Shown here in pieces: positions 337-55,636 of a stretch of 64,000 bases of DNA. Made by a program: the position numbers and the translations under genes. The notes beneath the pieces were generated by a model that did not search any database, was not told where the DNA came from, and worked only from the letters and a program-made list of their open reading frames with translations. Source of the stretch: Prorocentrum cordatum (lineage: Eukaryota > Sar > Dinophyceae > Prorocentrales > Prorocentraceae); assembly GCA_963575745.1 (NCBI GenBank), contig CAUYUJ010020706.1, positions 1 to 64,000 of the forward strand, in the 5' to 3' direction. Position 1 is the stretch's first letter. Each line of letters starts with the position of its first letter.

Positions 337-337
<1 letters not shown>

Positions 338-824
338 GTCTCGGCTCGAGAGTGCCCTGCGCTCAGACCGCAGCCGCGACGCGAAGCGCCCCGCCTCGGA
401 GCCAGACTCCCAGGCCTCGCGAGACCGGAGGGGTCCCAGCAGGACCCTACTGATTCGCGTCACCTCCCCCCACCAGAGCGCCCGCAGCAATGGCCCCCAG
501 TAAGCCGGAGCGCCGTCGCTCTTCCAAGCAGCCCCAGAGCTCACGTCCTGCTGCTGAAGGGTCTCTCCTCCAACGCAAGCAGGACTGCGTCGCAGCTTTC
601 AAGCAAGCGGGGTCTGACCGCCCCACGGCCGCATACAACGGGCTTGCCGAGCTGAACGCGGATGAGCTTCAGGCCACGTACGACATGCACAAGACCAACA
701 CGAAGAAGCTCGGCAGTGCCTTGATCCGCATGTGCGCCGCCAACCAGATCAGCTACACGCTGGATCACCACCAGCGCAGCAAGCCTAAGCGCATTGGCGG
801 TGACACATCACACCCACCAGCTGG

Positions 825-849
825 GTCCGCACGTCTTCAGGCTGCGGAC
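825..849 (+). repeat. Bulged-C hairpin H0 (ORF1)
   Basis: Outer stem GTCCGCA/TGCGGAC, bulged C, inner stem GTCT/AGGC (one T.G wobble), loop TC. Encodes ARLQAA in ORF1. Copy 2 match at 53238. Confidence 0.8.
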
Positions 850-2157
850 ACCCAATTCATGCCTTGGACCCGGCCTTTTGGAAGGTCCCAGTCCTCGCCG
901 AACCCACATCACCTGACGACGGCAAGACGTACAAGCCCAGTATCAGCCTCCACGACTACGAGAGCGGTGAACGGCTGCTGCAACACCACCTCGAGCAGGG
1001 TAAGCGTACCACGGGTCAGCTTGCGATTGCTGTCATGGGCCCAAAAAACGACAACTACGTCGGTACCGAGCTCGCCGTCCCCGTGCTGAAGCGTCACCCC
1101 AAGGCGCCCAAAGTGGTCCACACGCACGTCCCCGTGACCGTGTACCAGCTGGGCACCAAGGAAGTCGCCTGCACGGAAAAAGTTGCCGTCGCCACCATCG
1201 ACCCTGCCGACCACGTATGCTGGATTCGGGTGACCATACATGAAACCGAGGCCATCGCCGCAGTCCCCTCCATGCATCAGGCCTTCGAGGACCAGTTCTC
1301 GGGAGGTGCCCCCGTGAACCACGCGCCAAGGGTCCTTTCCGACTCCGCTCCACAGGACAAGGCGCGCCAAAACCAAAAGCACAGGGAGTCCAAGAAAGAC
1401 GCTCGCCGCCAGGAGCTCGATAGTCAGCTCCAGGACACCTTCAAGGCCCTCTTCCACGGCAACTTTAAAGCCGTCACCATCCTCGAACCCTGCAAAAGCC
1501 TAGGCAGGTTTGGATCGGGCGTCGGAAAGAGGTCCCTGGCTGCCACCTTCGGCGTCAGTCTTCAAGCGGTCGACAAGGTCTTGGCGGGTTCAGGGCAACT
1601 CGGCGCCACCTACGACCTCAGCAACGTAGGTGCAGACGAGCCCACTGCAGACAAGTACCAGACCGTGTGGTTCCCTGAGGACCAGCCCATCACGATGGCA
1701 GATGCGTTCCAGAAGTCGGTGGATTTCAAGGCCCTGGGAGTCGTCAGGCACGGCAAGTCAGGCTTATTGGGGATCCGTGTTTCACGAGGGTCAGACGCCG
1801 CCAAGGCTGCTGCCGTCAGCATCCGCGGCTGCGAAGCCACCCTCGCCAAGACGCGCTACCGTATCACTGGCATTGCGGCACGCCACGCCACGCTGACCCA
1901 GCTCGCCAAGACCCTCACGGGCCCGTCCGTTAAATGGGACTGTGAGGTCTACCACACCGCCTGGGACCCAGCCACTTCGGCTCAGTTTGCCTTAGTGCGC
2001 GCCCATCGTCCCCCACTCACATATACGGTACGGGTCGCAGGGTGCCCCATCCCGTGGAGCATCACCGAGGCCCCGCTGGCTGAGGTGGTGCCGAAGAGGG
2101 ACAACGTTACCATCGTCACGCCTACCACCATCACAGAGCCTGTGACGCCGCCAGCCC

Positions 2158-2182
2158 GTGGTGGCGGCTTCAGCCCCGCCAC
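2158..2182 (+). repeat. Bulged-C hairpin H1 (ORF1)
   Basis: Outer stem GTGGTGG/CCGCCAC with one T.G wobble, bulged C, inner stem GGCT/AGCC, loop TC. Encodes GGGFSPA. Confidence 0.85.
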
Positions 2183-3047
2183 TGGCACACTCCTCACCAA
2201 AGCGGCCCAGAGCCCTTACCTCCACGACCTCATGACTGCCACGCCCAAAGGCAAGGGCGTCGCACCGCTCCTGATCCCCAAGGAGGAGCCTTTAGCCAAG
2301 CGCCACCGATCCTCCAGTGGGAAACGCGACGCCACGCCGCACGCAAGATCACACGGCGCCCCAGGCCGCAGCTCCTCTGCACCCCCGCACGGCACGGACG
2401 GAGCTGCCGAGCAGACGGCCGTCCAAGGATCAGGTGGTCATGACCCGCAGCTTGGCACGGTGGCGGCTGAAGGTGGGGGCCACACCGAAGGGGACGCTGC
2501 CACAGCCGCCGAAGTACCAGGCGACGCTGACGACGTCGAGATCCTCTCATCAGGTGATGAATACAGCGTGGCTTCCCACGAACTCAACACCTTCGGCGAA
2601 CGCTTCGCATCGGCACCCAAACTGCCAGATGCCGCCACAACCCGCATCCAACACATGGAACAACAGCACGAGCTGCTTGCCAACACGGTGGATAACATGC
2701 AGGTTCAGCTTGCGGGCGTTCTCTCCTCCCAGGCCACACTCACGGAGCACGTCTCAGGTTTGGAACGGGGGCTTGCCACCGTCGTCACCCAGCAACAGAC
2801 GGCAACCGCCGAAGCCGCTGCACTGCGTGGCGACATCCAGGCCCTCCTCGGGCACCTCACGGGGGGCACCATCCACCTGCCACAGGTGGCCACTCTCGAA
2901 ACTAAGAAGGAGGAAGCTGCATCAGTTGCCGATCCCGTGGTTGTCTGCGGGTGGATCGACCAGCCAGGCCAGGTCACCCCAGGGACGGGGCCCCCAGGGG
3001 CTGACAAAGGCAAAGACAAGGGTCGGGTCACCCAGGAACCCTATTGA

Positions 3048-3218
3048 AGGTGCCTCAGAGAGCCTGCCTCAGCCCTCCGAGGAAGCGCCTTCAGAGGCAT
3101 CTCTCCCCTCTTCGCGTCGTATCTCTTTCTTGTCATATCATGTCAGTTTTGGCAGCAGCACGCGCAAGCTATCTGGTGTAGGGACACCCGTCATCTTGCA
3201 GGGGGCGTGATTGTTGCA
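3048..3218 (+). other. ORF1-ORF2 spacer of LINE copy 1
   Basis: 171 nt without a long frame, strongly conserved in copy 2 (55466-55636). No promoter or structure was recognised apart from short inverted repeats around the CCTCAG repeats at 3051-3090. Confidence 0.6.
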
Positions 3219-6200
3219 ATGTACATGAGCATGCAGGGGTATCTGAGGATGCGTGCTGACATGCAGCTTTTGGCTCATCGCTCGCGCCGCCCGCCAGGCC
3301 TCGCCATCATGTGGCGCCTTGCCTGCAGCCTGGCCCTCCCCTCGCTCGCTGGAGCACACCCGTCTTCAGGCGGTGCGCCCCAGCATGGAGGTGAGGTTTT
3401 CCTGCGACATGCTGAACGTGGGACTCTTTTCTACCTTTACGATGACAGCATCTACAAGTACGATCACTGCACCATTTTGGACCCGATCGTGAACAGCACC
3501 GCCGCCGCGGGTCCGTGCGGCAACGGATCGCTGGGCGCCATCGTGAGCGCATGCACGCCCTTGTCAACTACGACACATGCATCGAAATCCACCCCCAGCG
3601 TGGCCTCGACCGTGGTGCAGCAGATCCTTGACGGGGACGTTGATACAGGCCAGGCACGCAGTGGCGGCTTCAGCCCCGCTGTCGTGCCCCGCTATAGCCC
3701 CACGGGTCTCACCACCCCCCTGTGCGCTAGGGGCGAACCCGAGGAGGACCCCGCTTTCTGGCACCTGATGATGATCCGCGGCCGGCTCATACCGTGCGCT
3801 GAGGCGTGGGCACCAGGTGAGGACCACCAGGACGTGTTCTGGGCATGGCTCGAGGACTGCGTCCCGTACATCCTGGCGACGCTTCATCTGCCACAGTACG
3901 ATCACCTCTTCCAGGAGGACTCTGAGGACACAACCGACGCCCTGCGCCAGCTCACCGCGTTCGACATGTGCGAGGACATCTGGTATAGAGCGGGCCCCGA
4001 CAGACAGCGCACAAACCGCAACCTCACTCGTATCCAGGGCAGCCGCGAGTATTCCACCCGCTACTTTGGCCTCCTTCTGGAATACCAGGGTGCTCGTGCC
4101 CAGCTTGTCGGCCCTGAAGCTTTCACGGCACCTTTGCCGCCATACCTCTCACGGGCCCACGCCTTACTACCAAGAGGCCTTCCCCCACCCGACCAAGACG
4201 CCCTGGCGTACCTCGCTGATGCGATCCTGCACCACCCGACAGACATGCAGCCGCTTGTCGAGGCGGAGCTCGCCGCGGCACCTATGGAACCGCTTAACCC
4301 ACCACCGCCAGCTGGCCTCGCCCAGCACGCCACGGGTGATCAGGCCGCAGACGACCCCGTATCATGGCTGCTCCAGCACATCGCGGCCAGCGACACACCC
4401 CTGGACTCGTTCCACGCGTCGGACGATATCAGCAACATATCCCTGGGCTCGGTCCATGTGGACGATAGCCAGGACGACATGGAAACCCAGGATCGCGACG
4501 GCACGACACCACCAGGCGACACGGCCCAGCGTGACCGTGACAGTGAACCCCACTTAGGGCACACCTCGTCGCACAGCAGTCCGCCCAACAACTCGGCCCA
4601 GGCCGACCCCTGCGCACAGCTCAACGACGCTGAAGGCGCCACTGCCGCCGACGCGACAAGCCATGCCACTGCATCGCCAGCTCATGCCAGCCCGCGCAGT
4701 GGCGGCTTCAGCCCCGCTGCAGCACTGGCTGGACCTGGACATCCCCAGACCGCAGGTGGCAGCACCACGCCCCGCACCTCTGTCTGCCGTGTTAACGTGA
4801 CTGACTCCAACCCCAGTGTCATTGATCACTGGCAGGCCGACATCGACAACGACCCCATCGATGACGAGTACCCAGATGCCAGCGGTTCCCACGAGCTCCA
4901 GCACAGCGCAGCGGCATCACGACACTGTGGCTGCCTCATCTGCCTCTTTGTGGCCACGTACGCCATCGTGATAGCAATGCCGTACAAGGACCAGATCGAT
5001 GGGTACTTGCCGACACCGAGCCGAGACCCCAGCTACCGACAACGACGACGACGCGAAGCGGCGGCACCAGGCCCATCTGTGCCCACCACATCCCGACGCA
5101 CAACGACATACAACGTCACGTCCGCATTGTGGGCCACTCTCAAGTGGACCAGCGTCAAACTCAGAGATAGCGTCTCGGGCGGAGCCAGCGCAGTCGGGGT
5201 CGGCCTCGGGGGTGTCCTGAAATGGGCCAGCGGCAAACTCGGGGCTATTGCCACGGGCGGAGTGGTGTGCGGTCTTCTTCTTGTCGGCGCCAAACTCCTT
5301 GCTCAAGGAGCCGTCGGACACGTAGGAGCCCGCATCTGTGCGCGTGCCCTGGACTCATCCACAGCCCAATGGTGCCTCCGCTGTTGCCAACCGAGCAGGA
5401 GGCCGCGCGATGAGGCCACATGCACAATGCCGTGCACGCTTGCCGACGAACACGACGACCAGCACGTGCACTCACTCCGACATCCGCTGCTGCAGGAACA
5501 CTACGCCGCTGCAGTTGCCGCCGCAGTCGCCGATGTCACCACCGCCACCACCGCCGCCATCGTCGAAGTCACTGCCGCCGTATCGCGAGCCTCGTCCGTC
5601 ACACCACGATCGACCAGCCCGTCCCCGCGAGACGGCTCCAAGAGCGGCGCGGCATACGGTAATCCACCGACTCACGAAGACGCCACAGCACACGGCAGCG
5701 ACACCGAGGCAAGGGAAACACGTGAGTGCACCCACGTTAGGCCGTGGTCCATCTTCCGACATGCAGATGCTCGTGGTTCCTCTCCCGACGCGGACACCCA
5801 ACCACCACGACGGCGAGCACGCTATGCATCACCCGCCAGGCCCCAGGCGCCTTCAGGCCCTGGTACGCCCCATCTAGCCCTCAAGCCACCGACGCGCAAC
5901 TTACGCAACACTATTCAGCGCGACCCAGCGGTCCCCGTGCCGCCGACGAGCATCCTCAACGCCCTGTACCAAAACGGCTTTGCGCTTGGTAACAGTGGCG
6001 TGTCTACAGAGGACATCAAAGACGCTCTGCGACTTCACGACCATCCTCGATTCACCCATGATCTAACACTCCAAGCGCTGGGGCCGTGGACTGACATCAT
6101 GCAGAGGCCCCCGAACCGCCTCACTTGGGTGCTCGAAGACTCGGGCGGAAACTCAGGCGAGACGATTTTCCCCTACCTCACGTGGGACCTCCGCAAACCC

Positions 6201-9200
6201 ACCACCGACGCGCCCACTGTCTTCTGGCATGGGACCCGTGGCGACCTTGCGGCCCGTCTCGCCGCCAGCGGAGGGCACCTCTTGCCAGGCCCCCGCCGTG
6301 AAACGAAGGGTCGAACTGGCACCAACGTTGGCCGCACGTACGTGAGTGTGCACCCTTCGCTGGCCGCGTGGTACGCAGTGCCGCCCCACCCGCCCTACAG
6401 CCTCGAAGACGACACCCTCGCGTGGGGACCCATCGCGCTCTGGATGTGCGAGGCCACCCAACCACCGAGCGGTGAAAACTGGCACAACTTCGTGAAAGGG
6501 GAGGCCCACGGAGCGCGCCTCATCTACCCTCGGGTCCTGGGCCTCCTCATCCGCATGGACTGGTGTGCCCCCACGGAAGCTGCCTCCAGGTGCCGTGCCT
6601 TGCCACAAGTATTTGGCATGGGCGACTGTGCGCACGCCCTCCACATCGCTGGCTACGATCATCCAGATCTCCGTGAGGCCGCTGAAGCCCACGACCAGGA
6701 AGCTAGCACTCGGCGCAGGCTGGGCATCGCGGCAGCGTGGCCACCGCCGCAGGCACTATACTCGCCAGAGGCAGCGCGAGCATGGGCCAAACAGCATTAC
6801 GACACTGAAGCAGCCACCAGGGCCGACCCCAACCAGCCCCGGCCACGCGTCTCGCTGCGCAGGCTCCAGCTGGACCCGCAGTCACTGATCGACCTTGTGT
6901 ACACTGGCTTGCAAGCCGTCCCCGTGCGGGGGCACCCCGAAGCACGCGAGTCGCGCCCCAGCGGCTCCAGCCCTGGGGCCGCGTCTGGCCCACCGCGCAC
7001 CTACCAGTCAGGTGCCGCCCTGGGACACAGTCCAGACCGCTCATCGACGACATCGGGAGCCGACGACCGCCGTACGCCTTCCCTCATCAGCGCGGCCGCC
7101 GCCCTCGCCCGAGGCCACGCCCGCCCACGGCGATCCGCCTCTCGTGCGTCACGGCAGAGTGGCGAAAACTCCACCTCGGACTACAGCGACATCGAGACGT
7201 GGGAGCACATCGTGACGGAAGTGGAGCCGACCGCCTACCACGTTCTCGCCTTCCACGTCCGTGATGTGCGGGCCCGTGTCAATGCCCCTGGCATCGAGGT
7301 CTGGCTTGACCCTGGCGATCACCACGACGGCGCCTACTTACCGTGGGGGACGACCGTCATGGGCCATCGCGTTATCGACCCTGAGGTGGTGGGTCGTGAC
7401 GGCTGGGTCATCCTCCACCACGACCATGGCGATACCACTACCAAGCTCTGGGCACCGACCCAAGTCCACGTCAAGGCGGATGACACGTGGCGCACGGTCA
7501 TGGTACCAGCGGACATGGGGCCCCAGTGGATAGAGCGCCACGCCGATGACGCTCGCCTCCCCGCCGAGGTCGTCCGCACTACAGGCCAGTCCTGGTTTGC
7601 CGACGTCTGGCCCTTGTGGGATCGACCTCGTCCCCACCCTGACGACCCAGGCACAAACGAGCAAGCGCTCCCGCCCCTACCAGGACGCTGGTCATGCCTA
7701 CAGTGCCGATTTCAATGCTGCCAGTACTGTGCGGCCCGCCGCAACACGCAGCTCGGCACCTCGGGCCAACCAACGTGCCCAGACTGCGCCCTCAGCGGAC
7801 TACGTGCACCTATGGACTGGTCCACGGACTACTCTTGCAACAGCTGGACGTGTGCATTCAGCACCGACAACAGGGACTCTGACACATGCTGCCTCTCCAG
7901 CAGGTGCCCTCACCCGCCCAGTCCACACAGCCTGCTCGACGTCCGTGCCACAGGGATGCCGCCGCACATCCTTGCCCGCCAATTTGGCAACGCGCCAGCC
8001 CACCACGACCTCAAGGAGCCCCCCCGAGCGCCTTCAGGCCCCGGGGGGGAGCCTCCACAACCAGGCCAAGCTGGTTACCAGGGTCAATGGTACCTTCCAC
8101 CGAGGCCGCGGCGCGTCCCCAGGCAGGGATTGCCCGACGGCACGCGGCGGCCACCTGGGTTCACAGGAACGGGGATGCCTGAAGTCCCGTCCCCCGACCA
8201 ACCTCTCTGGAGGGAAGGCTACGTGCTCTTCGGCCCCCACCAGGCCCTCAAGGAGGAATTCACCTTCAACAAGACGGTACGCCGACCCTACTCCCTAGCC
8301 ATCACCAACATGTACAGGGACCGTGTCACGGTCAGGACCGTCTGCGAGTCGATCGCCGAGCGCATCCACACTACCCGCACCCGCTGGCGAGATGTGGTAC
8401 TGTACTGGGACGCCGAGGGTGGTCCTGGGCCTCAAGCTCTCGACTATGACATGCGACTCTGCGACGCCATGGTGAGCCGTGCCACGACCGAAGCCGAGCT
8501 AAACCACGACCGCAGCAACCGTGGTAGTTTCTGCCTCTATGGACCAGCGCACCAGCGCGCCGTAAACATCACGGCGATCTCCGAGCCGCAGAACATCGAC
8601 TACATGGAGCATGTGCGGCGATACTCACCCGTAGGGGAGACCTACCCAGACCACGCCTTCGAGCACGTCTATCGGGGCTGGCAGCGGCCCGACGTGCCCA
8701 CCATCCTCCCCGACACCCGCCCCCTCTCGAGAGCCGACCAGCAGCGATATCAACAGCACCAGCAGCGCATTCAGCAGCGCGACCAACGCGACGCAGGTCA
8801 GCCGAGCACGCCACGCTACCGCTCTCCCGCGCGAGTCCCGACAGGCGGCAGCACGGCCTACGGCGGGGCTGCCGCCTATTACCGTGGCCCCATTGGCGCC
8901 AGGCCCGCGGCGGCTGGAGCAGCCGCCTCCAGCTACGGCCACGCCCCTCACGCCAGGGTGCACCCAGCGGTCATCGGCTACCCGCGTGCACTCGTGCAGG
9001 CCCCCCCACGGGCCACCTCGCCCGTGCCAGGGTCCACGCGCGCCTGGGGCCACTACTCAGGCCGACATGATGGCACCCCCAGCAACCAGCCCGCAGTGAT
9101 TACCCCTGCGGCTTCAGCCCAGGGGGCTGCAACAAACCGTGGCAGGACAGGGCGCCCTGAAGGATGGCGCGATGCGAACGTGCGTGCTTGGCAACCGCGC

Positions 9201-11384
9201 CAGCACACGCCCCCGCCAAACGTGGCCGCAGCGCTGCGCCCTGCCCAGGCAAAACCTGCCCCACCTGAGCGGGAGAGGCAGCCGCTCGTCCCGCTCGTCC
9301 TCACGTACACCCAGGCGCACCACAGCGCCTCCCCGCGGCACAGCGAGGGAAGCGCCCACCACATCAGCCCCCGCCCCGACGCTGTCGACCCTGACCAGGC
9401 CACAGCCACGGCGGAGGGCGGCACAAGCGCCTCCCGCCAGCCCAGCCCATCACCCTGCGCGGCGCCGATCCGATCCCCGAGCAGGGCGGATTCCGAGCGC
9501 GCTAATGCCCAGGCGACCTCGCCACGCGACCGCCACACGGGCGGGCGCGTCCCGCGCAGCAGGTCCTGCAGCCGCCACAGCTCACGCAAGGCACCAGGGA
9601 GCTCCACGAGCTCGCCGCCTCGCGAGACTCAGGCTGATGGCCGAGCTTCCGAAGTGGTGCCACGCTTCGGTGCCAGCGTCATCGAACCTGGCCAGGTGGA
9701 CCTCTCTCCGACGCCGTCCACGGACCACGAGCCGCCGCTGCCCACCCGCGTGATCGTCCCCATCGACGAGGCGCCGACCTTCGACCCGTACAAGAACAAG
9801 TACCGTGTCAAGGACCTTGCGGCGGGTTTCGGCGGTGGCTCACCGCTCTCACCTCAGAGTCGGGGCGGAGCCCCCGCCACCTCAGCCGCTGCCGCGGCAG
9901 CGGCGGCCCCGCGGGGAATCAGCCCTGTCCGCAACGCGGGCCTCACGGCAGCGGGCATGGACGAGGCCCAGCGCCAGGCCACCGACCGCGCTGCTCGAGC
10001 TGTTCCACCAGATGCTGCTCATCAAGATACTGACGGGGCGGGCGCGCCACCGCAGGACGGACCAGCGGTGTCGCGTGCGCAGTATATGCGCGTGCGTTGT
10101 GCCGCTGCCGCGCCGAGCCGCCGCCGCTGGTTCGCTTTTGCTTTTGTGCTCGGCAGGACGGATCGAGGAGTCGCCTCCCTCTCCCTCTGCTGCCGTCTCA
10201 CCTCTCCTCCCCTCGTCCCCTATGGTACAGGAGTGAGGAGGATTTTTCGAGACAGTTTCATTGACGTTTATGAACCCCCCCTGGCGCAGTGCCGACCATG
10301 TCTCGCCTATACTTCTGGCCTGACGGCGGCTTCAGCCCCGGTCAAGCTAATCCATAGGAACGCCATGAGCTCCTACTGTGGCCAAGCCTTCTACCTGGGC
10401 GAGGGTCAGGCTGACCTACACCGTGCGGGGCGTGCAAACCCCAGCTCCACCGATGGAGACGGGCCAGGTCGCTCCATACACCTCGTCAGCCTAAACATCA
10501 CCAGTCTCTCAGCGAACTGGCCAACCATCACCGCTCTTGGTGTCGACCACAACGCCGCAGTCATAGCACTGCAGGAGACCCGACATGCCAAGCCGACCAG
10601 ACAAGCCATCGCTACCAGCGCCGCCAATCCACACCACGGGGGATACCACGCCAGTCTTGGACCTGACCTGGATCTGGCGCGAGCCCAGCGCAGAGCTGCC
10701 CACGGCGGCACAGACCACACCGTCGTGGGCAACACTGGCGCCTCGGGAGGGGTCGCCATCCTCTCTAAGGATGCCATTGTCGACTCCACTGTCGACGACA
10801 CTGCGCCCTGTATCGTCGCCCTCAAGGCCAAGAAAAGATGGCACGAGGCCTTTCTCCCGCTCTGCACTCAGCACCGCCGCAGGCGGCGACGAAACAACCA
10901 CGGGCCCGCTGGGATCTACATAGCGAGCCTCTACGGGGTTGCTGGAGGAGACAGCGCAGATCTTTTTCGGCTCGCTGACTGCGCCGCCGCAAGGGTCGGC
11001 TCAGCCCCGTATTTCATCTGCATGGACGCCAACACGAACATCGACGACAATCCACACCTGCTGCACATGATGCAGCACGGATGGTTTAACGTCGCTGAGG
11101 GCACACCAGACCACACCATGCACACATACGGCAATATCCCTGACTGGGACCGCGTCACCAAGTGCCCCCGCACTTCGCGCATCGATTATATCATTGCCAA
11201 CCAAGCGGCGCGATCCCTTGTCACCGACTTCTGCTATCTGCGCGACTTGCCAGCGAAGTCCCATGTTGGCCTGCAGGTCACGCTTGACCTCAGTCGCCTC
11301 GACCATACGGCCCGACGCCTTCTTGCCCCCACGCCCTACCCTCCCAACGATGGAGCTCACGAGGGTCACGAACTGCAGGCTTAG
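3219..11384 (+). CDS. LINE copy 1 ORF2: membrane/ART-like/Cys-rich/APE endonuclease polyprotein
   Basis: One uninterrupted frame of 2,721 codons from the first ATG (3219). A second in-frame ATG at 3309 gives MWRLACSLALPSLAGAHP, a convincing signal peptide, and may be the true start. In order: two hydrophobic helices near residues 569-589 (CGCLICLFVATYAIVIA) and 676-698; an ADP-ribosyltransferase-like segment near 999-1055 (FWHGTR, then TYVS...WYA); a Cys-rich zinc-ribbon-like block near 1491-1567 with many CxxC pairs; an unrecognised conserved block near 1661-1822; long Pro/Gln/Ser-rich linkers; and an APE/EEP endonuclease at about 2420-2708. The endonuclease shows LNITSL, LQETR, CMDANTN, SRIDYI and SHVGL, matching the Asn, Glu, Asp/Asn, SxIDxI and His motifs of LINE endonucleases. 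TAG at 11382 ends it just before the reverse transcriptase ORF, which is in another frame. The nicking role of the endonuclease is family knowledge; the functions of the N-terminal modules are unknown. Confidence 0.88.
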   Translation: MYMSMQGYLRMRADMQLLAHRSRRPPGLAIMWRLACSLALPSLAGAHPSSGGAPQHGGEVFLRHAERGTLFYLYDDSIYKYDHCTILDPIVNSTAAAGPCGNGSLGAIVSACTPLSTTTHASKSTPSVASTVVQQILDGDVDTGQARSGGFSPAVVPRYSPTGLTTPLCARGEPEEDPAFWHLMMIRGRLIPCAEAWAPGEDHQDVFWAWLEDCVPYILATLHLPQYDHLFQEDSEDTTDALRQLTAFDMCEDIWYRAGPDRQRTNRNLTRIQGSREYSTRYFGLLLEYQGARAQLVGPEAFTAPLPPYLSRAHALLPRGLPPPDQDALAYLADAILHHPTDMQPLVEAELAAAPMEPLNPPPPAGLAQHATGDQAADDPVSWLLQHIAASDTPLDSFHASDDISNISLGSVHVDDSQDDMETQDRDGTTPPGDTAQRDRDSEPHLGHTSSHSSPPNNSAQADPCAQLNDAEGATAADATSHATASPAHASPRSGGFSPAAALAGPGHPQTAGGSTTPRTSVCRVNVTDSNPSVIDHWQADIDNDPIDDEYPDASGSHELQHSAAASRHCGCLICLFVATYAIVIAMPYKDQIDGYLPTPSRDPSYRQRRRREAAAPGPSVPTTSRRTTTYNVTSALWATLKWTSVKLRDSVSGGASAVGVGLGGVLKWASGKLGAIATGGVVCGLLLVGAKLLAQGAVGHVGARICARALDSSTAQWCLRCCQPSRRPRDEATCTMPCTLADEHDDQHVHSLRHPLLQEHYAAAVAAAVADVTTATTAAIVEVTAAVSRASSVTPRSTSPSPRDGSKSGAAYGNPPTHEDATAHGSDTEARETRECTHVRPWSIFRHADARGSSPDADTQPPRRRARYASPARPQAPSGPGTPHLALKPPTRNLRNTIQRDPAVPVPPTSILNALYQNGFALGNSGVSTEDIKDALRLHDHPRFTHDLTLQALGPWTDIMQRPPNRLTWVLEDSGGNSGETIFPYLTWDLRKPTTDAPTVFWHGTRGDLAARLAASGGHLLPGPRRETKGRTGTNVGRTYVSVHPSLAAWYAVPPHPPYSLEDDTLAWGPIALWMCEATQPPSGENWHNFVKGEAHGARLIYPRVLGLLIRMDWCAPTEAASRCRALPQVFGMGDCAHALHIAGYDHPDLREAAEAHDQEASTRRRLGIAAAWPPPQALYSPEAARAWAKQHYDTEAATRADPNQPRPRVSLRRLQLDPQSLIDLVYTGLQAVPVRGHPEARESRPSGSSPGAASGPPRTYQSGAALGHSPDRSSTTSGADDRRTPSLISAAAALARGHARPRRSASRASRQSGENSTSDYSDIETWEHIVTEVEPTAYHVLAFHVRDVRARVNAPGIEVWLDPGDHHDGAYLPWGTTVMGHRVIDPEVVGRDGWVILHHDHGDTTTKLWAPTQVHVKADDTWRTVMVPADMGPQWIERHADDARLPAEVVRTTGQSWFADVWPLWDRPRPHPDDPGTNEQALPPLPGRWSCLQCRFQCCQYCAARRNTQLGTSGQPTCPDCALSGLRAPMDWSTDYSCNSWTCAFSTDNRDSDTCCLSSRCPHPPSPHSLLDVRATGMPPHILARQFGNAPAHHDLKEPPRAPSGPGGEPPQPGQAGYQGQWYLPPRPRRVPRQGLPDGTRRPPGFTGTGMPEVPSPDQPLWREGYVLFGPHQALKEEFTFNKTVRRPYSLAITNMYRDRVTVRTVCESIAERIHTTRTRWRDVVLYWDAEGGPGPQALDYDMRLCDAMVSRATTEAELNHDRSNRGSFCLYGPAHQRAVNITAISEPQNIDYMEHVRRYSPVGETYPDHAFEHVYRGWQRPDVPTILPDTRPLSRADQQRYQQHQQRIQQRDQRDAGQPSTPRYRSPARVPTGGSTAYGGAAAYYRGPIGARPAAAGAAASSYGHAPHARVHPAVIGYPRALVQAPPRATSPVPGSTRAWGHYSGRHDGTPSNQPAVITPAASAQGAATNRGRTGRPEGWRDANVRAWQPRQHTPPPNVAAALRPAQAKPAPPERERQPLVPLVLTYTQAHHSASPRHSEGSAHHISPRPDAVDPDQATATAEGGTSASRQPSPSPCAAPIRSPSRADSERANAQATSPRDRHTGGRVPRSRSCSRHSSRKAPGSSTSSPPRETQADGRASEVVPRFGASVIEPGQVDLSPTPSTDHEPPLPTRVIVPIDEAPTFDPYKNKYRVKDLAAGFGGGSPLSPQSRGGAPATSAAAAAAAAPRGISPVRNAGLTAAGMDEAQRQATDRAARAVPPDAAHQDTDGAGAPPQDGPAVSRAQYMRVRCAAAAPSRRRWFAFAFVLGRTDRGVASLSLCCRLTSPPLVPYGTGVRRIFRDSFIDVYEPPLAQCRPCLAYTSGLTAASAPVKLIHRNAMSSYCGQAFYLGEGQADLHRAGRANPSSTDGDGPGRSIHLVSLNITSLSANWPTITALGVDHNAAVIALQETRHAKPTRQAIATSAANPHHGGYHASLGPDLDLARAQRRAAHGGTDHTVVGNTGASGGVAILSKDAIVDSTVDDTAPCIVALKAKKRWHEAFLPLCTQHRRRRRRNNHGPAGIYIASLYGVAGGDSADLFRLADCAAARVGSAPYFICMDANTNIDDNPHLLHMMQHGWFNVAEGTPDHTMHTYGNIPDWDRVTKCPRTSRIDYIIANQAARSLVTDFCYLRDLPAKSHVGLQVTLDLSRLDHTARRLLAPTPYPPNDGAHEGHELQA
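3357..3375 (+). repeat. Bulged-C hairpin H2 (ORF2)
   Basis: Outer stem CACC/GGTG, bulged C, inner stem GTCT/AGGC, loop TC. It lies just after the signal-peptide codons. Confidence 0.7.
3653..3688 (+). repeat. Bulged-C hairpin H3 (ORF2), extended
   Basis: Core C-GGCT-TC-AGCC with stem AGTGG/CCGCT below it, then a small internal loop and a further stem GGCACG/CGTGCC. Encodes SGGFSPA. Confidence 0.85.
4696..4720 (+). repeat. Bulged-C hairpin H4 (ORF2)
   Basis: Outer stem GCAGTGG/CCGCTGC with one T.G wobble, bulged C, GGCT/AGCC, loop TC. Encodes SGGFSPA. Confidence 0.85.
5843..5863 (+). repeat. Bulged-C hairpin H5 (ORF2)
   Basis: Outer stem CCAGG/CCTGG, bulged C, inner stem GCCT/AGGC (covarying with GGCT/AGCC elsewhere), loop TC. 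Encodes QAPSGPG. Confidence 0.85.
6955..6979 (+). repeat. Bulged-C hairpin H6 (ORF2)
   Basis: Outer stem GCCCCAG/CTGGGGC, bulged C, GGCT/AGCC, loop CC. Encodes PSGSSPGA. Confidence 0.85.
8019..8049 (+). repeat. Bulged-C hairpin H7 (ORF2)
   Basis: Core C-GCCT-TC-AGGC, one G-C pair, one A.C mismatch, then an eight-pair stem CCCCCCCG/CGGGGGGG. Encodes RAPSGPGG. Confidence 0.8.
9103..9125 (+). repeat. Bulged-C hairpin H8 (ORF2)
   Basis: Outer stem CCCCTG/CAGGGG, bulged C, GGCT/AGCC, loop TC. Encodes PAASAQG, a different codon phase from H1 and H4. Confidence 0.85.
10321..10344 (+). repeat. Bulged-C hairpin H9 (ORF2)
   Basis: Stem TGAC/GTCA and GG/CC around one extra G, bulged C, GGCT/AGCC, loop TC. 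Encodes LTAASAP. Confidence 0.8.
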
Positions 11385-11416
11385 GGACCCTCATCGCTGG
11401 GCGATATCAGGACCGC

Positions 11417-14400
11417 ATGGAGCAGGCCGACGCACGCGACGACGTGGAACGCATGTTCGCCCTGGCTAACGAGGCCAGTCATGAGTACCATCTCACCCGT
11501 CTGCGCGACCTGCCACCTCCACCGCCTGACCACCCAAAAAAGAAGCCCCCCACCATGCACGGGCTCACGCCCATGTTCGAGGAGCGACCAGTTGTCCCCC
11601 GTGCCTTCCCCACCTACGGAGCTTCCACGATACACATGAACCGACTGCGCAAGCTCCATCGGCAACTCTGTGAGCTTCGCTTCATCGGACAGCACCATCA
11701 TTTAGACTGCCGTGCCATCCCGCCGTACCTAGCGCAGCGCATCGACTGCACGTGGACCGCGGCCCGCCTCCTATGTCACAAGCTGCGCCCCACGGTTCTC
11801 CTAGACTTCCCCGAGGCCTGGACCCCCGACGAGCCAGCACCTCACGGAGAGCACCTTGACGGTTTGATCCAAAACCTCGACCTAGAGCTGGCGCGACGTG
11901 CGAACCGTGCCAAAGCTGAACGCATCAAGATATGGGCTGAGGGCGTCCGCGAGCCAAGCGGGCGAAAGGCGGCCATATACGCACGGGCTGCTGACAGCTC
12001 GCCCACGGCGTATCTCCGCACGCCTACCACACCTGACGATACGCAACTCCACTGCGACACCAACGCCTTCAAACCTGACAAAGCTAGCACGGACGATAGC
12101 GACGCTGACACCGAAGCTGGCGGCTTCAGCCCCAGCGACGGTAGTTCGCCCGACACGGACAACGACGAAGACCACACTTGTGAACCACCACCTGCACAAG
12201 TCCCCGACATTCTCCCTGCCAACGCCATTGTTGCTAATACCAAAGACATGCTTAAGCTCATGGTCGACACCTGGGAGCCCATCTTGGGCAGGTACCGCGC
12301 CCGTGCAGGACATGACGCCGAAGCCATGCCGACGTGGGCTGACTTCTACGACGAGTACCGACAAGAGCTGCCTACGCCATCACCAGCTACCCCTTTCCAC
12401 CTCACCGACGACCAACTCATCCACTTTATTCGCACCCGTTCACCGCGCCGTGCGGGGGGACTGGACGGCTGGACTACTAAGGAGGCTAAGGAGTTACCCG
12501 ACGACATCCTTCGCCTCTTCGCCAGCGTCTTACGCGCTATGCAACGCACTGGCACCATCCCAGAACCCCTCCTCCATGTGCCAAACCCGTGCCTCCGAAA
12601 AGGCCGAGGCGAACTCCCAACGGACCAACGACTTCTCTCGGTGCTTTCCGTTTGGATGTATGCGTGGGAAGCGCCAGCTTACCGCAGCCTCACGGACTGG
12701 CGGAAAGGATGGACCCACGCCACGAGCTTTGGCGCTGTCCCCAAAGCTACCATTGGGGACGTCAGCACCTCTCTTGCCCTGCGCATCGAACACGCCAGGG
12801 CCTTACTCCTTCCCTTAGCTGGGGCTGCCCTTGACCGACAGAAGTGTTTCGACTACCTCATCACGGACATCTGCCTTAACCTTGCGCTTCACGCGGGGTG
12901 CCCCCAAGACATCGTTACTGTCCGCAGAAACTTCTACAGTCGCCACAAACGCTACATCCGCATGAACGGAGCGTACTCTAAGGAATTGGCCAGGACCAAC
13001 GGTCATCTCCAGGGAAGCTCTTGGTCCCTGGACGACATTAAGCTGCTCATGTGTGTGTGGACCAAGAGACAGCATCGATACGTTCCGCGATCACTCAGCA
13101 CTACCTTTGTTGACGACAGCAACTCCACTACTCACACCGCGCCTGAGTTGCAGAAATCTCTTGATGAAACCGCCAAGTTTGATCGATTTTCAGGTCAACG
13201 CATTCACCCTGGCAAAGTGGCGGGGTGGGCGCTCACCGACGAGCTTCACGCCGCCGTTACCCAGCTCACTCTGGCGGAACGGCCCTTACGCGTGGTCGAC
13301 TCCTTCAAGCTCGTCGGGAGTTACATCAACGCCGAGGCAGCGCCGGCTCCAGCCGCGCTTAACCTCACGGCCACCGCTGACGCCCGTGTTCGGAGGGCGA
13401 CTAGTCGCCTGCCGCGCATTGGCAAGCTCCCATCGCCGATGCTTATTAAGGCGCGGCACGCCCGTTCCCTTGCTGCCAGCGTCTGTACCACGGGCACCGA
13501 CATTCAAGCCCCATCAGGCCCCGTCAAAACTGCCTACAACCATGCCCTTAAGGCGGCTATCCGCCCCAAGGGAAACAAGTGGGTCGAGTTTTGGACTCTC
13601 ATGGCCGTGTGCGTCCCAGGACACGCCCTGGAGATTGACGCCATCACGCAGCGTGAAGTTTTCCTGTGTCTGCGGCGACAGGTTAATCGCGACGCTACAC
13701 TCTGCGGTCTCGTCAGGGATCTCCAACACCACGTTCAGACCCTGTTTGGTGGAGGACCTGTCGGACGACTTGTCCAGTCGCTCCAGCAGCTCCGTTGGAC
13801 CTGGCCCACATTTGGCATCATGTACGACGACTGGGGCTGCCAGATCAGTTGGCTGAACTTACCCCAAAACGCCTTCCTTCACATGCTGCGGGCCTCACAA
13901 CGCAGAGCCTTTCTGAGGAGGATCAAGCCACGGCGTCACGACCTTGGATACCTTGCCTCTGTCAGACAGGGCCTCGACCTCTTCGCCAGCACGTGGCTCG
14001 CCCGAACGAAAGGAGCAGCCAAATGCACTGCCTGGCAGCTGGCGCTCCTCCTGAACTACCTGTCGGGCGGGGACCACACCCAACAGCGACGATCCCGATC
14101 AAACACGTCTGCTGACCCCAGCCCCATCTGCCGATACTGCGACGAGGAAGAGGAAACTCAGGAGCACACTGTCCGCGACTGCAAGTGCTGGGCCCGAGAA
14201 AGACTCCCTCTCACCACCCTCATCAGTGACGAGCAGTGGGCCCGTCTTCCGCCGCACACAAGACACTGCGGGCTCTTCGATGAAGACCCAGCCCTCCTCG
14301 ACCTGCAGGCCGACCTCGCGAGGGACCCGCTACCTCAGCCCATACCGCGGCCCCCACCTGAGGGAGATCCTGCGGCTTCAGCCCAGGACTCCTACACCAC

Positions 14401-16195
14401 CTACCTTGACCACGACACTGGTTGGACATGGGTCTACGCTGCCACGGACGGTGCATGCACCAACCAAGCCATCCCATTGCTAGCACGAGCGGGCTACGGC
14501 GTCTACTACGGCATCGACCACCGCATGAACTACAGTGCACGCGTTCACGGCATTACGCAGAACGCACAGCTTGCGGAGACCCTCGCCATTGTCCACCTCA
14601 CGGCATGTGCTGAACGGCCCGTACACGTTTTCGTGGACAACCAGGCGGTGGTCGATGGGTTCCAAAGTATCATCGACGGACACTCACCACCGCAGGGCAC
14701 GCACGTGGAGCTCTGGGAAAAGATCCACCGATGCGTCATGGCCAAGCCCAACATGTTCCGCGTCGAGAAAATCGCAAGCCACCTGGGAGACATGGGCATC
14801 GACCTCGGGCTCATCGGGCCCATCGCGGAGGAGTTCAATCGTCAGGCTGACGCCCTCGCCACAACGGCGGCACGTACTCATAACCTTCCAGACGACATTG
14901 TCGAAGCTGCCAAAACACGACATCGCCAAGCGACCGTGCTTCATGGAGTCGCTGTCGCCATATACGAGCGTAGACACCGCACACTCCCCCTCCCACACCG
15001 CAGGGCTGGGTTTACAGCTGCGGAACTCAACAAAATGGAACCAAACCCCCTGCTGTCTGACCAGGCACCACCCGCGGCTGGACCAGACATCCCACAGAAC
15101 CCGGACGAGCTCTGGGCCGAGGCCCAACGGGCGATATTCGACGAACAGGAGGACGACCCGTTCGGCTTTGGCGGGGGCCTTGACTTCCTAGGCGACGGGC
15201 CAGCCAGCGCCAACCTTGCCCCGTCGGGCACCCGCACGTCGCCCTCGACTCCGCCACTGAGAGCGGCATCGCACCCACATGACAACGCCGCTCACCTTCA
15301 AGACGCTGACGAACAGGAGGACGACCTGTTCAGCTTCGGTGGGGGATCGGACGCTTTGGACGACGGACAAGTCAGCGAAAACCCTGCCCCGTCGGGCAAC
15401 CTCTCGACGCCTACCGCGACTCCGTCCCCGAGAGCGACATCGCCCCCATACGATGATATCGGCCACCGCCAAGACGCCGACGACGACCTGGGTGACCCCC
15501 GCGGACTGAGTGGCATAGACGACGCACCGCCGACACCCCACGCTGCCGACCATGCCGCTCTACCGAGACGCCACCCTTCTACGCGGCCGACCTCAGAGCC
15601 CTCGCACGGCATCATGATTGGCCCCACCGCGCAAACCACTCCGCCCCCCCACCAGCGGCAGCCCGCGGGGGCGGCTTCAGCCCCCCCGCAGGGCACTGAA
15701 CCAGACAGGCCCTCGCGCCCCGTCCGCGCTTCCATCGTTGCTGAGCGAGAGGATGCGGCTCTCCCAACCTCTCGGGGCGTGGCCCTAGCGGCTCCAGCCC
15801 TGGGGTCGCGTGTTCCCCCCCAGTCACCTTTCAAGGGTGACGGACGACAGCGTACAGGGTGCCGCACTACGCTAGTCCACCATCTGGACAGGCGTACCGA
15901 GGACCTCGCCTCTGTCTCGAGGCCCTCGGCCGCTGGCATTGAGCAGCCACCCCTCACCGACCGCGAAACCGAGCTGTCCCAGGCTATGGCTGCTCTCCAG
16001 CAGAGGTGCGTTGCTCTCGCCGCGGACCTCGCCGCCGCCCAAGCTCGCCAAGGCCCTCTACTCCAGCGCCTCCACAGCGCCGGGCGAGCCTTCGCCGAGC
16101 TGCTCACGCCCTCGCCCGATGGTGCCGTGCCGTCACTCACCATCCAAGCTATGCTGTCATCGTTCCGCGGCGCTCCACCTGGTGCCCCGCGCTAA
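11417..16195 (+). CDS. LINE copy 1 ORF3: reverse transcriptase - zinc motif - RNase H
   Basis: 1,592 aa. It copies the element RNA into cDNA by target-primed reverse transcription (family knowledge). Visible RT motifs: ALDRQKCFDYL (motif A, near residue 470), GHLQGSSWSL (motif B), TFVDDSNS (motif C, an FVDD box in place of the usual FADD/YADD, near 564), a Gly/Lys motif D and DSFKLVGSYI (motif E). Near 905-922, CRYCDEEEETQEHTVRDC is a CxxC..H..C zinc motif of the kind found downstream of LINE RTs. RNase HI follows (about 1003-1155) with TDGAC, AETLA, FVDNQAV and RQADALA, supplying the D-E-D-D set. The tail carries a tandem duplication around EQEDDxFxFGGG and ends in a Leu/Gln coiled-coil-like segment. 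The start at 11417 is the first ATG of the frame, but the frame is open further upstream and overlaps the end of ORF2, so ribosomal frameshifting or a lost fusion is possible. Confidence 0.9.
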   Translation: MEQADARDDVERMFALANEASHEYHLTRLRDLPPPPPDHPKKKPPTMHGLTPMFEERPVVPRAFPTYGASTIHMNRLRKLHRQLCELRFIGQHHHLDCRAIPPYLAQRIDCTWTAARLLCHKLRPTVLLDFPEAWTPDEPAPHGEHLDGLIQNLDLELARRANRAKAERIKIWAEGVREPSGRKAAIYARAADSSPTAYLRTPTTPDDTQLHCDTNAFKPDKASTDDSDADTEAGGFSPSDGSSPDTDNDEDHTCEPPPAQVPDILPANAIVANTKDMLKLMVDTWEPILGRYRARAGHDAEAMPTWADFYDEYRQELPTPSPATPFHLTDDQLIHFIRTRSPRRAGGLDGWTTKEAKELPDDILRLFASVLRAMQRTGTIPEPLLHVPNPCLRKGRGELPTDQRLLSVLSVWMYAWEAPAYRSLTDWRKGWTHATSFGAVPKATIGDVSTSLALRIEHARALLLPLAGAALDRQKCFDYLITDICLNLALHAGCPQDIVTVRRNFYSRHKRYIRMNGAYSKELARTNGHLQGSSWSLDDIKLLMCVWTKRQHRYVPRSLSTTFVDDSNSTTHTAPELQKSLDETAKFDRFSGQRIHPGKVAGWALTDELHAAVTQLTLAERPLRVVDSFKLVGSYINAEAAPAPAALNLTATADARVRRATSRLPRIGKLPSPMLIKARHARSLAASVCTTGTDIQAPSGPVKTAYNHALKAAIRPKGNKWVEFWTLMAVCVPGHALEIDAITQREVFLCLRRQVNRDATLCGLVRDLQHHVQTLFGGGPVGRLVQSLQQLRWTWPTFGIMYDDWGCQISWLNLPQNAFLHMLRASQRRAFLRRIKPRRHDLGYLASVRQGLDLFASTWLARTKGAAKCTAWQLALLLNYLSGGDHTQQRRSRSNTSADPSPICRYCDEEEETQEHTVRDCKCWARERLPLTTLISDEQWARLPPHTRHCGLFDEDPALLDLQADLARDPLPQPIPRPPPEGDPAASAQDSYTTYLDHDTGWTWVYAATDGACTNQAIPLLARAGYGVYYGIDHRMNYSARVHGITQNAQLAETLAIVHLTACAERPVHVFVDNQAVVDGFQSIIDGHSPPQGTHVELWEKIHRCVMAKPNMFRVEKIASHLGDMGIDLGLIGPIAEEFNRQADALATTAARTHNLPDDIVEAAKTRHRQATVLHGVAVAIYERRHRTLPLPHRRAGFTAAELNKMEPNPLLSDQAPPAAGPDIPQNPDELWAEAQRAIFDEQEDDPFGFGGGLDFLGDGPASANLAPSGTRTSPSTPPLRAASHPHDNAAHLQDADEQEDDLFSFGGGSDALDDGQVSENPAPSGNLSTPTATPSPRATSPPYDDIGHRQDADDDLGDPRGLSGIDDAPPTPHAADHAALPRRHPSTRPTSEPSHGIMIGPTAQTTPPPHQRQPAGAASAPPQGTEPDRPSRPVRASIVAEREDAALPTSRGVALAAPALGSRVPPQSPFKGDGRQRTGCRTTLVHHLDRRTEDLASVSRPSAAGIEQPPLTDRETELSQAMAALQQRCVALAADLAAAQARQGPLLQRLHSAGRAFAELLTPSPDGAVPSLTIQAMLSSFRGAPPGAPR
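12116..12136 (+). repeat. Bulged-C hairpin H10 (ORF3)
   Basis: Outer stem GCTGG/CCAGC, bulged C, GGCT/AGCC, loop TC. Encodes AGGFSPS. Confidence 0.85.
13339..13359 (+). repeat. Bulged-C hairpin H10b (ORF3, RT domain)
   Basis: Outer stem AGCGC/GCGCT, bulged C, GGCT/AGCC, loop CC. Encodes APAPAA, the third codon phase of the motif. Confidence 0.8.
14368..14388 (+). repeat. Bulged-C hairpin H11 (ORF3)
   Basis: Outer stem TCCTG/CAGGA, bulged C, GGCT/AGCC, loop TC. Encodes DPAASAQ just before the RNase H domain. Confidence 0.85.
15661..15694 (+). repeat. Bulged-C hairpin H12 (ORF3), extended
   Basis: Outer stem GCGGGGG/CCCCCGC continued by GCCC/GGGC across one bulged A, bulged C, GGCT/AGCC, loop TC. 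Encodes GAASAPP. Confidence 0.85.
15783..15805 (+). repeat. Bulged-C hairpin H13 (ORF3)
   Basis: Outer stem CCCTAG/CTGGGG with one T.G wobble, bulged C, GGCT/AGCC, loop CC. Encodes LAAPAL. Confidence 0.75.
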
Positions 16196-16565
16196 TCTCC
16201 TCCTTTCTGCCTGCCCGTGTGTACGCGTGGCTCCGCGTCCACGGTGTCAGGGCGTGGGGGCGGGGGGTGCCCCGTCACTGCGCGCCGCTTTGCGGCCAAG
16301 CGCCCAACTGGCGGTCTGCCAAGCCGCCTAGCCACGTGTCAGCACGTCGCCTTTCTTGTCGGGGCCTCTTTCTTTACGCGGTCTGACAGGTGAGATCATC
16401 ACCGTCTGTCCGCCGTCTGTAGCGTCTGTCGCACTGCGCCGGGGGAGGGGGTCTCTTTTTTGTTGCCCGCCCTCGTATCTAAAGGCTGCACCGCCGCAAA
16501 TAGTGTTTAGCGAGTTGTCGCACCGCAGTGCGCCTCGCGGACGGACCCTGGTCCGCCTAATTGTC

Positions 16566-52739: not shown

Positions 52740-52740
<1 letters not shown>

Positions 52741-53237
52741 GTCTCGGCTCGAGAGTGCCCTGCACTCAGACCGCAGCCGCGACGCGAAGCGCCCCGCCTC
52801 GGAGTCAGACTCCCAGGCCTCGCGAGACCGGAGGGGTCCCAGCAGGGCCCCACTGGTTCGCGTCACCTCTCCACACCAGAGTGCCCGCAGCAATGGCCCC
52901 CAAGAAGCCGGAGCGCCGTCGCTCTTCTAAGCAGCCTCCGAGCTCCCGTCCCACGCGCCCTGCTGCCGAAGGGTCCCTCCTTCAACGCAAGCAGGACTGC
53001 ATCGCAGCGTTCAAGCAAGCGGGGTCTGACCGCCCCACGGCCGCCTACAACGGGCTAGCCGAACTGAACGCGGACGAGCTCCAGGAAATGTACGACATGC
53101 ACAAGTCCAACACGAAGAAGCTTGGCAGCGCCCTTATCCGCATGTGCGCCGCCAACCAGATTAGCTACACGCTCGATCACCACCAGCGCAGCAAGCCTAA
53201 GCGCACTGGCGGTGACACATCGCATCCACCAGCGGGC

Positions 53238-53260
53238 TCCGCACGTCTCCAGGCTGCGGA
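53238..53260 (+). repeat. Bulged-C hairpin H0' (copy 2)
   Basis: Stem TCCGCA/TGCGGA, bulged C, GTCT/AGGC, loop CC (TC in copy 1). Confidence 0.8.
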
Positions 53261-54572: not shown

Positions 54573-54603
54573 CCGGTGGTGGCGGCTTTAGCCCCGCCAC
54601 CGG
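54573..54603 (+). repeat. Bulged-C hairpin H1' (copy 2)
   Basis: Stem extended to CCGGTGGTGG/CCGCCACCGG, bulged C, GGCT/AGCC, loop TT. Confidence 0.85.
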
Positions 54604-55636
54604 CACACTCCTCACCAAAGCGGCCCAGAGCCCCTACCTCCACGACCTCATGACTGCCACGCCCAAAGGCAAGGGCGTCGCACCGCTCCTGACCCCCAAG
54701 GAGGAGCCTTCAGCCAAGCGCCACCGCTCCTCCAGCGGGAAACGTGACGCCACGCCGCACGCAAGGTCACCCTGCGCCCCAGGCCGCAGCTCCTCAGCGC
54801 CCCCGCACGGCACGGACGGAGCCGCTGAACCGACGGCCACCCCAGGACCAGGTGGCCACGACCCCTGGCTTGGCACGGCGGCGGCAGAAGGTGGGGGCCA
54901 CACCGAAGGCGACGCTGCCACAGCCGCCGAAGTACCAGGTGATGTCGTCGACGTCGAGATCCTCTCATCAGGTGATGAATACAGCGTGGCCTCCCACGAA
55001 CTCAACACCTTCGGCGAGCCCTTCGCATCGGCCTCTAAACCGCCTGATGCTGCCACGACCCGCATCCAGCACATGGAACAGCAGCACGAGCTGCTAGCCA
55101 ACACGGTGGATAACATGCAGGTGCAGCTTGCGGGCGTTCTCTCCTCCCAGGCCACACTCACGGAGCACGTTTCAGGGCTGGAACGGGGGCTTGCCACCGT
55201 CGTCACCCAGCAACAGACGGCATCCGCCGACGCTGCTGCACTGCGCGGCGACATCCAGACCCTCCTCGGGCACCTCATGGGAGGCACCATCCACCTGCCA
55301 CAAGCGGCCACTCTGGAAACTAAAAAGGAGGAAGCCGCAGCGGCCGCCGAGCCCGCGGCAGCCTGCAGTTTGACCGACCAGCCAGGCCAGGCCACCCCAG
55401 GGACGGGGCCCCCAGGGGCCGACAAAGGCAAGGACAAGGGTCGGGCCACCCAGGAACCCTATTGAAGGTGCCTCAGAGAGCCCGCCTCAGCCCTCCGAGG
55501 AAGCGCCTTCAGAGGCATCGCTCCCCTCTTCGCGTCGTATCTCTTTCTTGTTACCTCATGTCTGTTTTGGCAGCAGCACGCGCAAGCTATCTGGTGTAGG
55601 GACACCCGTAGTCTTGCAGGGGGCGTGATTGTAGCA

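Follow-up and report, generated by a model that had tools for sequence, protein, structure and literature searches.

Bulged-C hairpins conserved along a 16-kb LINE of Prorocentrum cordatum and recurring in a 6.9-kb partner element

The dinoflagellate Prorocentrum cordatum carries a long interspersed nuclear element (LINE) of 16 kb, along which a family of small hairpins is conserved at the nucleotide level and which shares this family with a 6.9-kb partner element. We analyzed a 64,000-nucleotide stretch of contig CAUYUJ010020706.1 (assembly GCA_963575745.1), hereafter the window, in which two copies of the LINE lie in the same orientation (copy 1 and copy 2; Table 1). The comparisons below give good support to the view that the hairpins are a structure under selection, in which the arms covary while the core is fixed. 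We propose that they are read in the element's RNA by one element-encoded protein.

Results

Architecture and covariation of the hairpins

All 15 hairpins of copy 1 share one architecture, with a variable outer stem, a single bulged C, a 3-bp stem GNC/GNC and a UYCA loop. In the core CGNCUYCAGNC, eight positions are the same at all 15 sites, and the pair N2-N9 is GC at 11 sites, CG at two and UG at two. A sequence-only reading of this DNA had listed 15 positions, and a scan that allowed mismatches found the hairpin described at every one of them. The bulged C of that description stood at 15/15 sites, but not its 4-bp inner stem with a YC loop, because all 15 isolated segments fold as 3 bp with a 4-base loop. 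Its outer stem of 4-10 bp holds at 13 sites, where at least four contiguous pairs lie under the bulge; it fails at site 8029 (sites are named by the position of the bulge), where the second outer pair is an A.C mismatch, and at site 10327 of copy 1, where only three outer pairs are contiguous.

The outer arms were also said to differ and yet to stay complementary, and this is borne out by the pairing statistics. Among the 165 pair cells of the 15 sites, 92.1% are paired, against 65.7 in shuffled sets, and 35 cells are altered on both sides, against 10.4. Changes on both sides occur at 8/8 variable pairs (5.7 in shuffled sets; 19 of 500 shuffles reached eight). The covariation score was 0.629, compared with 0.145 after shuffling (0/500 as high) and at most 0.204 for slid structures; as common descent may link some of the sites, what is measured is covariation among repeats and not among orthologues. 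The non-Watson-Crick cells of the 19 distinct hairpins comprise 10 G.U, two A.C and one other, and an excess of G.U over A.C is what folding of the sense strand predicts.

Chance controls and specificity

We scanned the window strictly, with a C bulge, four inner pairs, a YC loop and at least four contiguous outer pairs. The plus strand gave 22 sites, all of them within 832-15789 or 53244-63069, and the minus strand gave nine, with different inner stems. When at least five outer pairs were demanded and any bulge and loop were allowed, copy 1 contained 17 hairpins, 12 of them with the C bulge and YC loop (C/YC); its antisense strand contained four, one of them C/YC. In 60 dinucleotide shuffles of copy 1 the C/YC count averaged 0.1 and never exceeded 2, compared with the 12 observed. 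The second and third open reading frames (ORF2 and ORF3) together hold 10 C/YC hairpins, whereas 60 synonymous-codon shuffles gave a mean of 0.15 and a maximum of 1. The core pattern alone occurs 12 times in copy 1, and once in total over 300 shuffles. Of the hairpins with this architecture in the 36 kb that separate the two copies, none of 11 on the plus strand and two of 17 on the minus strand are C/YC. The dinucleotide, codon and core-pattern shuffles thus led us to reject chance or base composition as the source of the family.

A model (R1) was trained on the 15 copy 1 sites; the 11 sites of copy 2 lay outside the training, 10 of them being homologous to it. Run over the window with filters off, it placed these 15 + 11 element sites at ranks 1-26 (36.9 to 21.5 bits), all on the sense strand, and rank 27 scored 15.5. 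The sequence-only reading had named two results that would count against it, of which one was a model matching unrelated sequence equally densely. This did not occur: the best score was 17.4 bits in 13 other loci (L008-L020, 130 kb), of which 12 were chosen arbitrarily and one, L008, at pattern matches, none having a blastn match to the element. The best score in a further locus (L026) was 14.6 bits, and hits were absent from L023 and L024 (E up to 2) and from L029 and L030 (E up to 1). A search of Rfam with window positions 1-17000 gave three sub-threshold matches up to E 5, none at a hairpin site. The genome comprises 4.13 Gb in 21,875 contigs, of which the hairpin scans covered a small part.

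Conservation between element copies

Ten sites are shared by copies 1 and 2. Within the hairpins (-7 to +17) 9/250 positions differ, compared with 36/250 and 32/250 in the flanks; in the fixed core 1/80 differ, and the loop Y differs at 3/10 sites. The hairpins are conserved beyond what the protein would explain at silent positions: none of 48 four-fold sites of ORF2 differs inside hairpins, compared with 242/1384 outside (the probability of 0/48 is 0.825 to the power 48, or about 1e-4 by hand arithmetic). At codon position 3, the differences are 0/64 inside hairpins and 414/2658 over the whole of ORF2. The hairpin at 57379-57403, present in copy 2 but not in copy 1, possibly reflects gain or loss beside an existing site.

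Further copies were read on four contigs: C21 has two in head-to-tail order, of which the second is cut, C2 has one cut and one whole copy, and the others are on C37 and C67. The other result named in advance, loss of arm complementarity in such copies, was not what we found: together with copy 2, they keep 82 of 85 site copies, and the three lost or weak ones are all in C21. Here a site counts as 'kept' if it has a C bulge and four inner pairs and if at least as many of its first five outer pairs form as in copy 1; the loop is disregarded. The count used alignments longer than 90 bases of 132-base probes, so that short ones were dropped (for example, site 3665 in C2, C37 and C67). Over the same copies 17/2115 hairpin positions differ, compared with 521/8892 flanking positions; as the copies are related, these changes are not independent events. 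Site 3361, which has a weak stem, retains its core in 7/7 copies, and site 10327 does so in 3/4.

Codon frame and spacing

The bulge falls at codon position 1 at one site, 2 at nine and 3 at five, so that three frames are in use. Sites 2165, 3665, 4703 and 12121 code for similar peptides (GGFSP). We rejected a repeated peptide motif as the source of the family on the three codon frames, the unchanged four-fold sites and one partner site beyond the longest open stretch.

Successive bulges in copy 1 are 1333, 1196, 304, 1038, 1145, 1114, 1067, 1080, 1218, 1794, 1223, 1029, 1299 and 117 bases apart. Eleven of these 14 intervals measure 1029-1333 bases (class 1000-1350), a spacing of about 1.1 kb whose evenness the sequence-only reading had not mentioned. 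None of 200,000 random placements reached 11 in this class (maximum 8), and with the interval class picked post hoc draw by draw, 100,000 placements gave at most 9. The copies on C2, C37 and C67, which are related, show nearly the same lattice, but their sites 3 and 4 are 181-182 bases apart and not 304.

The partner element

On contig C2, a 6.9-kb unit lies between two element copies. Its first 17 bases are identical to the element's, and its 3' tail is related to the LINE tail (87% over 363 bases, blastn). In tblastn, ORF1 (both frames), ORF2 and ORF3 gave no match to it at E 1e-3. Its longest open stretches have 621, 718 and 986 codons, and a Pfam-A scan of these three (926 of the 986 codons for the longest) gave nothing above cut-off, endonuclease and reverse transcriptase domains included. 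Judged by these features, namely a shared 3' tail and the lack of a recognized endonuclease or reverse transcriptase domain, the unit can be classed as a partner of the LINE.

Six core hairpins occur in the partner, at 1026, 1155, 2057, 4135, 4249 and 5893, and 500 shuffles gave none. They are spaced less evenly than those of the LINE. The arms of hairpin 2057 (UCGGCGG/CCGCCGA) are matched by none of 16 listed LINE sites, and hairpin 5893 lies beyond the longest open stretch, where a 119-codon stretch overlaps it. Searching the genome with an internal partner probe yielded 505 first-look candidates. All 40 of those scored matched, one being the query's own place, and they fell into two classes: 21 aligned with the probe throughout and 19 with roughly its final 430 bases. 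A 2.7-kb piece of a copy from the second class has four hairpins; one of these is new and has a C bulge (GGGUGC-C-GUCUUCAGGC-GCACCC), and the segment that holds it is 83% like the segment with the A bulge in the first partner copy. We also considered a mobile micro-hairpin of fixed sequence, which the differing arms make unlikely, though some partner sites have the look of copies.

The carrier element

The carrier has an APE-like endonuclease domain, an RNase H domain, as in some LINE clades, and no long terminal repeats, and by these it is an APE-type LINE of about 16 kb. The endonuclease-like domain at the end of ORF2 matches PF03372 (E 7.9e-8, 32.7 bits against a cut-off of 24.5), and the RNase H of ORF3 matches PF00075 (E 5.2e-7, 30.4 bits against 25.8). 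The match of ORF3 to RVT_1 is weak (E 0.023, 14.9 bits, under the cut-off of 29.6). A database search with ORF3 alone gave one relative, P0001 (46% identity), and a profile built from the two retrieves P0003 and P0004, both with PF00078. Comparison of the first and last 2 kb of copy 1 gave matches of 29 and 21 bases only, and no long terminal repeats were found. The SAM-like stretch of ORF2 is also weak (SAM_1 E 0.063, below cut-off; SARM1 SAM E 0.17). A protein search with ORF2 residues 900-2720 gave no relatives, and none was confirmed among the viral contigs and genome contigs searched.

Several further observations concern the element. ORF1 of copy 1 shifts frame shortly after hairpin 1 (864-1089), where copy 2 reads through. 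ORF2 from about residue 1002 (window 6213 onward, starting PTVFWHGTRG) recalls ADP-ribosyltransferase folds by eye and is without a Pfam match. The C-terminus of ORF3 (window ~15140-15480) contains within it a direct repeat about 170 bases long, whose halves are 77-79% alike in related copies. A probe of the element's 3' tail gave 1555 first-look candidates, of which 40 were scored and 40/40 matched, the window's own copy included. Head-to-tail arrays occur in C21 and C2; on C21 the next copy begins about 30 bases (31) past the previous one, as if new copies went into the CT tails of older copies. A distant family related to P0001, on contig C3524 (L032, 40700-42900), adjoins not (CT)n but a (CAT)n-like repeat roughly 1 kb long, and the family recurs at ~15.65 kb on that contig; different element families may insert into different microsatellites. 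Other contigs with distant P0001-like families include C1856 and C7480. Outside the element, window positions 17481-17501 on the minus strand carry what we take to be a relict dinoflagellate spliced leader (one mismatch). It is close to minus-strand open frames, as in retroposed mRNA genes.

Table 1. Coordinates of the element copies, reading frames and hairpins in the window
Feature	Position	Strand	Bulge	Model score (bits)	Remarks
Element copy 1	337..16560	+			LINE-type retroelement; ends approximate; (CT)n tracts both sides; blastn to other copies
ORF1, first frame	490..1089	+			interrupted in copy 1, continuous in copy 2
Hairpin 1	825..849	+	832	31.7	
ORF1, second frame	864..3047	+			C-terminus coiled-coil-like by eye; no Pfam match
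Hairpin 2	2158..2182	+	2165	35.7	
ORF2	3207..11384	+			2725 aa; APE endonuclease domain near 10500-11300; weak SAM-like stretch 3870-3974
Hairpin 3	3354..3378	+	3361	29.7	
Hairpin 4	3658..3682	+	3665	35.1	
Hairpin 5	4696..4720	+	4703	36.4	
Hairpin 6	5841..5865	+	5848	32.2	
Hairpin 7	6955..6979	+	6962	35.7	
Hairpin 8	8022..8046	+	8029	32.2	
Hairpin 9	9102..9126	+	9109	34.8	
Hairpin 10	10320..10344	+	10327	28.9	
ORF3	11417..16195	+			1592 aa; putative reverse transcriptase (RVT_1 match below cut-off) and RNase H
Hairpin 11	12114..12138	+	12121	31.8	
Hairpin 12	13337..13361	+	13344	27.9	
Hairpin 13	14366..14390	+	14373	32.2	
Hairpin 14	15665..15689	+	15672	36.9	
Hairpin 15	15782..15806	+	15789	33.4	
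Element copy 2	52740..64000	+			reaches window end; 90-92% identity to copy 1
Copy 2 hairpin	53237..53261	+		23.8	homologue of 825
Copy 2 hairpin	54576..54600	+	54583	29.4	homologue of 2158; loop C to T (loop TT)
Copy 2 hairpin	55772..55796	+		29.7	homologue of 3354
Copy 2 hairpin	56319..56343	+		35.1	homologue of 3658
Copy 2 hairpin	57342..57366	+		36.4	homologue of 4696
Copy 2 hairpin	57379..57403	+	57386	21.5	no hairpin counterpart in copy 1 (by eye); inner pair U-A
Copy 2 hairpin	58487..58511	+		30.1	homologue of 5841
Copy 2 hairpin	59601..59625	+		35.7	homologue of 6955
Copy 2 hairpin	60668..60692	+		32.2	homologue of 8022
Copy 2 hairpin	61748..61772	+		34.2	homologue of 9102
Copy 2 hairpin	63062..63086	+		26.1	homologue of 10320; outer stem pairs better than copy 1's

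Discussion

A proposed function and its alternatives

The claim of a selected structure, made from the sequence alone, has come through the shuffles, the covariation, the model, the four-fold sites and the further copies; the packaging or assembly signal proposed with it is something that we, too, infer. We put it at an even chance that the hairpins, in sense RNA, are sites for one protein encoded by the element and serve the assembly of a ribonucleoprotein (RNP) in trans. Each hairpin would be bound by one protein specific for both sequence and shape, most likely LINE-encoded; the candidates are the product of ORF1 and, in ORF2, the SAM-like stretch. Some SAM domains bind RNA hairpins, and it is for this reason that the SAM-like stretch is considered, as a candidate reader only. 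With many evenly spread sites, the reader could coat, count or compact a long RNA, and RNA of the element and its partner, not host mRNA, would enter the retrotransposition particle. Labour might thereby be divided: the reverse transcriptase would use the 3' tail, and RNP assembly would rely on the hairpins. The strongest step in this argument is the one from the partner to trans recognition: a partner without detected coding homology keeps both the tail and a set of hairpins, and recognition in trans is therefore likelier than a purely local role.

Several results weigh against this proposal. The predicted folds of the ORF1 segment and the SAM-like stretch are poor (mean predicted local distance difference test scores of 31.3 and 47.8). 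With 150-base flanks, predicted pairing falls below 0.5 at 4/15 sites (832, 4703, 9109 and 10327), and the fold energies of the 15 sites show no strand bias (sense lower at six, antisense lower at seven, equal at two). No compensatory double change within a site was found among 17 distinct pair changes across copies; three restore a pair, three keep one, nine break one (six of them in one disrupted site copy) and two stay unpaired. In ORF2 the deficit of differences inside hairpins is slight or absent at codon positions 1 (4/69 against 167/2659) and 2 (2/67 against 158/2659), so that the signal lies at third positions, as expected if the protein already constrains the other two. In the partner, A and not C is bulged in hairpins 1026 and 1155 (2/6). 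Apart from the tail, blastn relates the partner to the LINE only over 40-41 bases round two partner hairpins, which resemble site 15672; given that this likeness extends past the hairpin, the two may be copies. Finally, the best score in the distant family on C3524 was 7.6 bits in 3.6 kb, of which about 1 kb is the (CAT)n-like repeat and ~2.6 kb element sequence. As neither the control loci nor the stretch of this family that was read gave such a match, the hairpin may be confined to the family bordered by (CT)n tracts and to its partners.

The same structural data would fit binding by a host protein that governs the fate of the RNA, whether through nuclear export, stability, avoidance of silencing or translation of a very long message. 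Many sites along an RNA suit a stability or export element, and no RNA-binding domain exceeds the cut-off in ORF1-3. However, in the DNA examined the hairpin is found only in the element and its partner, the 13 other loci staying at or below 17.4 bits, whereas other long transcripts might be expected to carry a host signal as well, though the DNA examined is a small part of the 4.13-Gb genome; we regard this explanation as unlikely, though to be taken seriously. Local action, in which the hairpins pause reverse transcriptase or ribosomes or mark RNA processing and their even spacing reflects a limit of processivity, would account for the ~1.1-kb lattice, for the use of three codon frames and for a partner hairpin placed after a long frame. 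Yet pausing requires stability, not a fixed bulge and loop, and the weak-stemmed site 3361 and site 10327 keep their cores in most copies, while the partner is spaced less evenly. Local action thus seems to us quite improbable.

We find it somewhat harder still to credit that the hairpin acts at the DNA level, in single-stranded or cruciform form, for instance in recombination within head-to-tail arrays or as the site of a DNA-binding protein. The head-to-tail elements in C21 and the lack of a consistent energy difference between strands agree with such a role, but G.U outnumbers A.C by 10 to 2 among the distinct hairpins, the bulge and loop pick out a single strand, and all 26 window matches of at least 21.5 bits are sense. 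That chance, base composition or a repeated peptide produced the family is hardly credible: the similar GGFSP peptides at four sites are set against three frames, unchanged four-fold sites, the shuffles and a partner site after the longest open stretch.

Comparison with known systems

The iron-responsive element has a bulged C on its 5' side and a CAGUGN loop after 5 bp. Our hairpins resemble it in the single 5'-side bulged C beneath a short upper stem, but differ in their UYCA loop after 3 bp (15/15) and in having no Rfam match near the sites. In R2 and other LINEs, RNA structures at the 5' or 3' end are bound by element protein. The recognition proposed here is likewise of LINE RNA by element protein through structure, but the R2-type structures are large, terminal and one or two in number, whereas here a small hairpin is repeated and its binding is conjectured.

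According to one report, hairpins with a common small core and varying stems lie along the single RNA of phage MS2, with a bulged A on the 5' side and a short (x)xYA loop (PMC6281560). The present family is like these dispersed packaging signals of RNA viruses in that hairpins with a common core are spread through the sequence, presumably of one spanning RNA. It differs from the MS2-type operator (bulged A, ANYA loop) in its bulged C and UYCA, found at 15/15 sites; it also differs in its carrier, a LINE-type element without known capsid, in its even ~1.1-kb spacing and in being shared with a partner. LINE/SINE pairs (SINE, short interspersed nuclear element) have a common 3'-end stem-loop (PMC6510757). 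The partner is like a SINE in that a non-autonomous element has the 3' tail of an autonomous LINE, but it is unlike one in its length of 6.9 kb, its own long open stretches and the hairpins shared along its length.

Implications

A repeated hairpin array in a LINE was described by none of the matches listed, at the level of open-access titles and abstract openings, with subscription papers and preprints lying outside this set; the novelty of the array rests on that negative. It is still an open question how LINE proteins single out the RNA of their own element, cis preference and the 3' tail apart. A 25-nt hairpin with a conserved bulge and loop offers a defined probe for a reader protein, and it provides a nucleotide-level mark for element families overlooked by protein domain searches. 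The array also bears on whether multi-site packaging, known from RNA viruses, operates in retrotransposons. We suggest, tentatively and as somewhat short of an even prospect, that the LINE labels its whole RNA with a 'barcode' of protein-binding hairpins recurring roughly every 1.1 kb, and that non-autonomous elements parasitize it through acquired hairpins and the 3' tail. This would be multi-site packaging in a non-viral retroelement, with the spacing perhaps corresponding to the unit size of the RNP.

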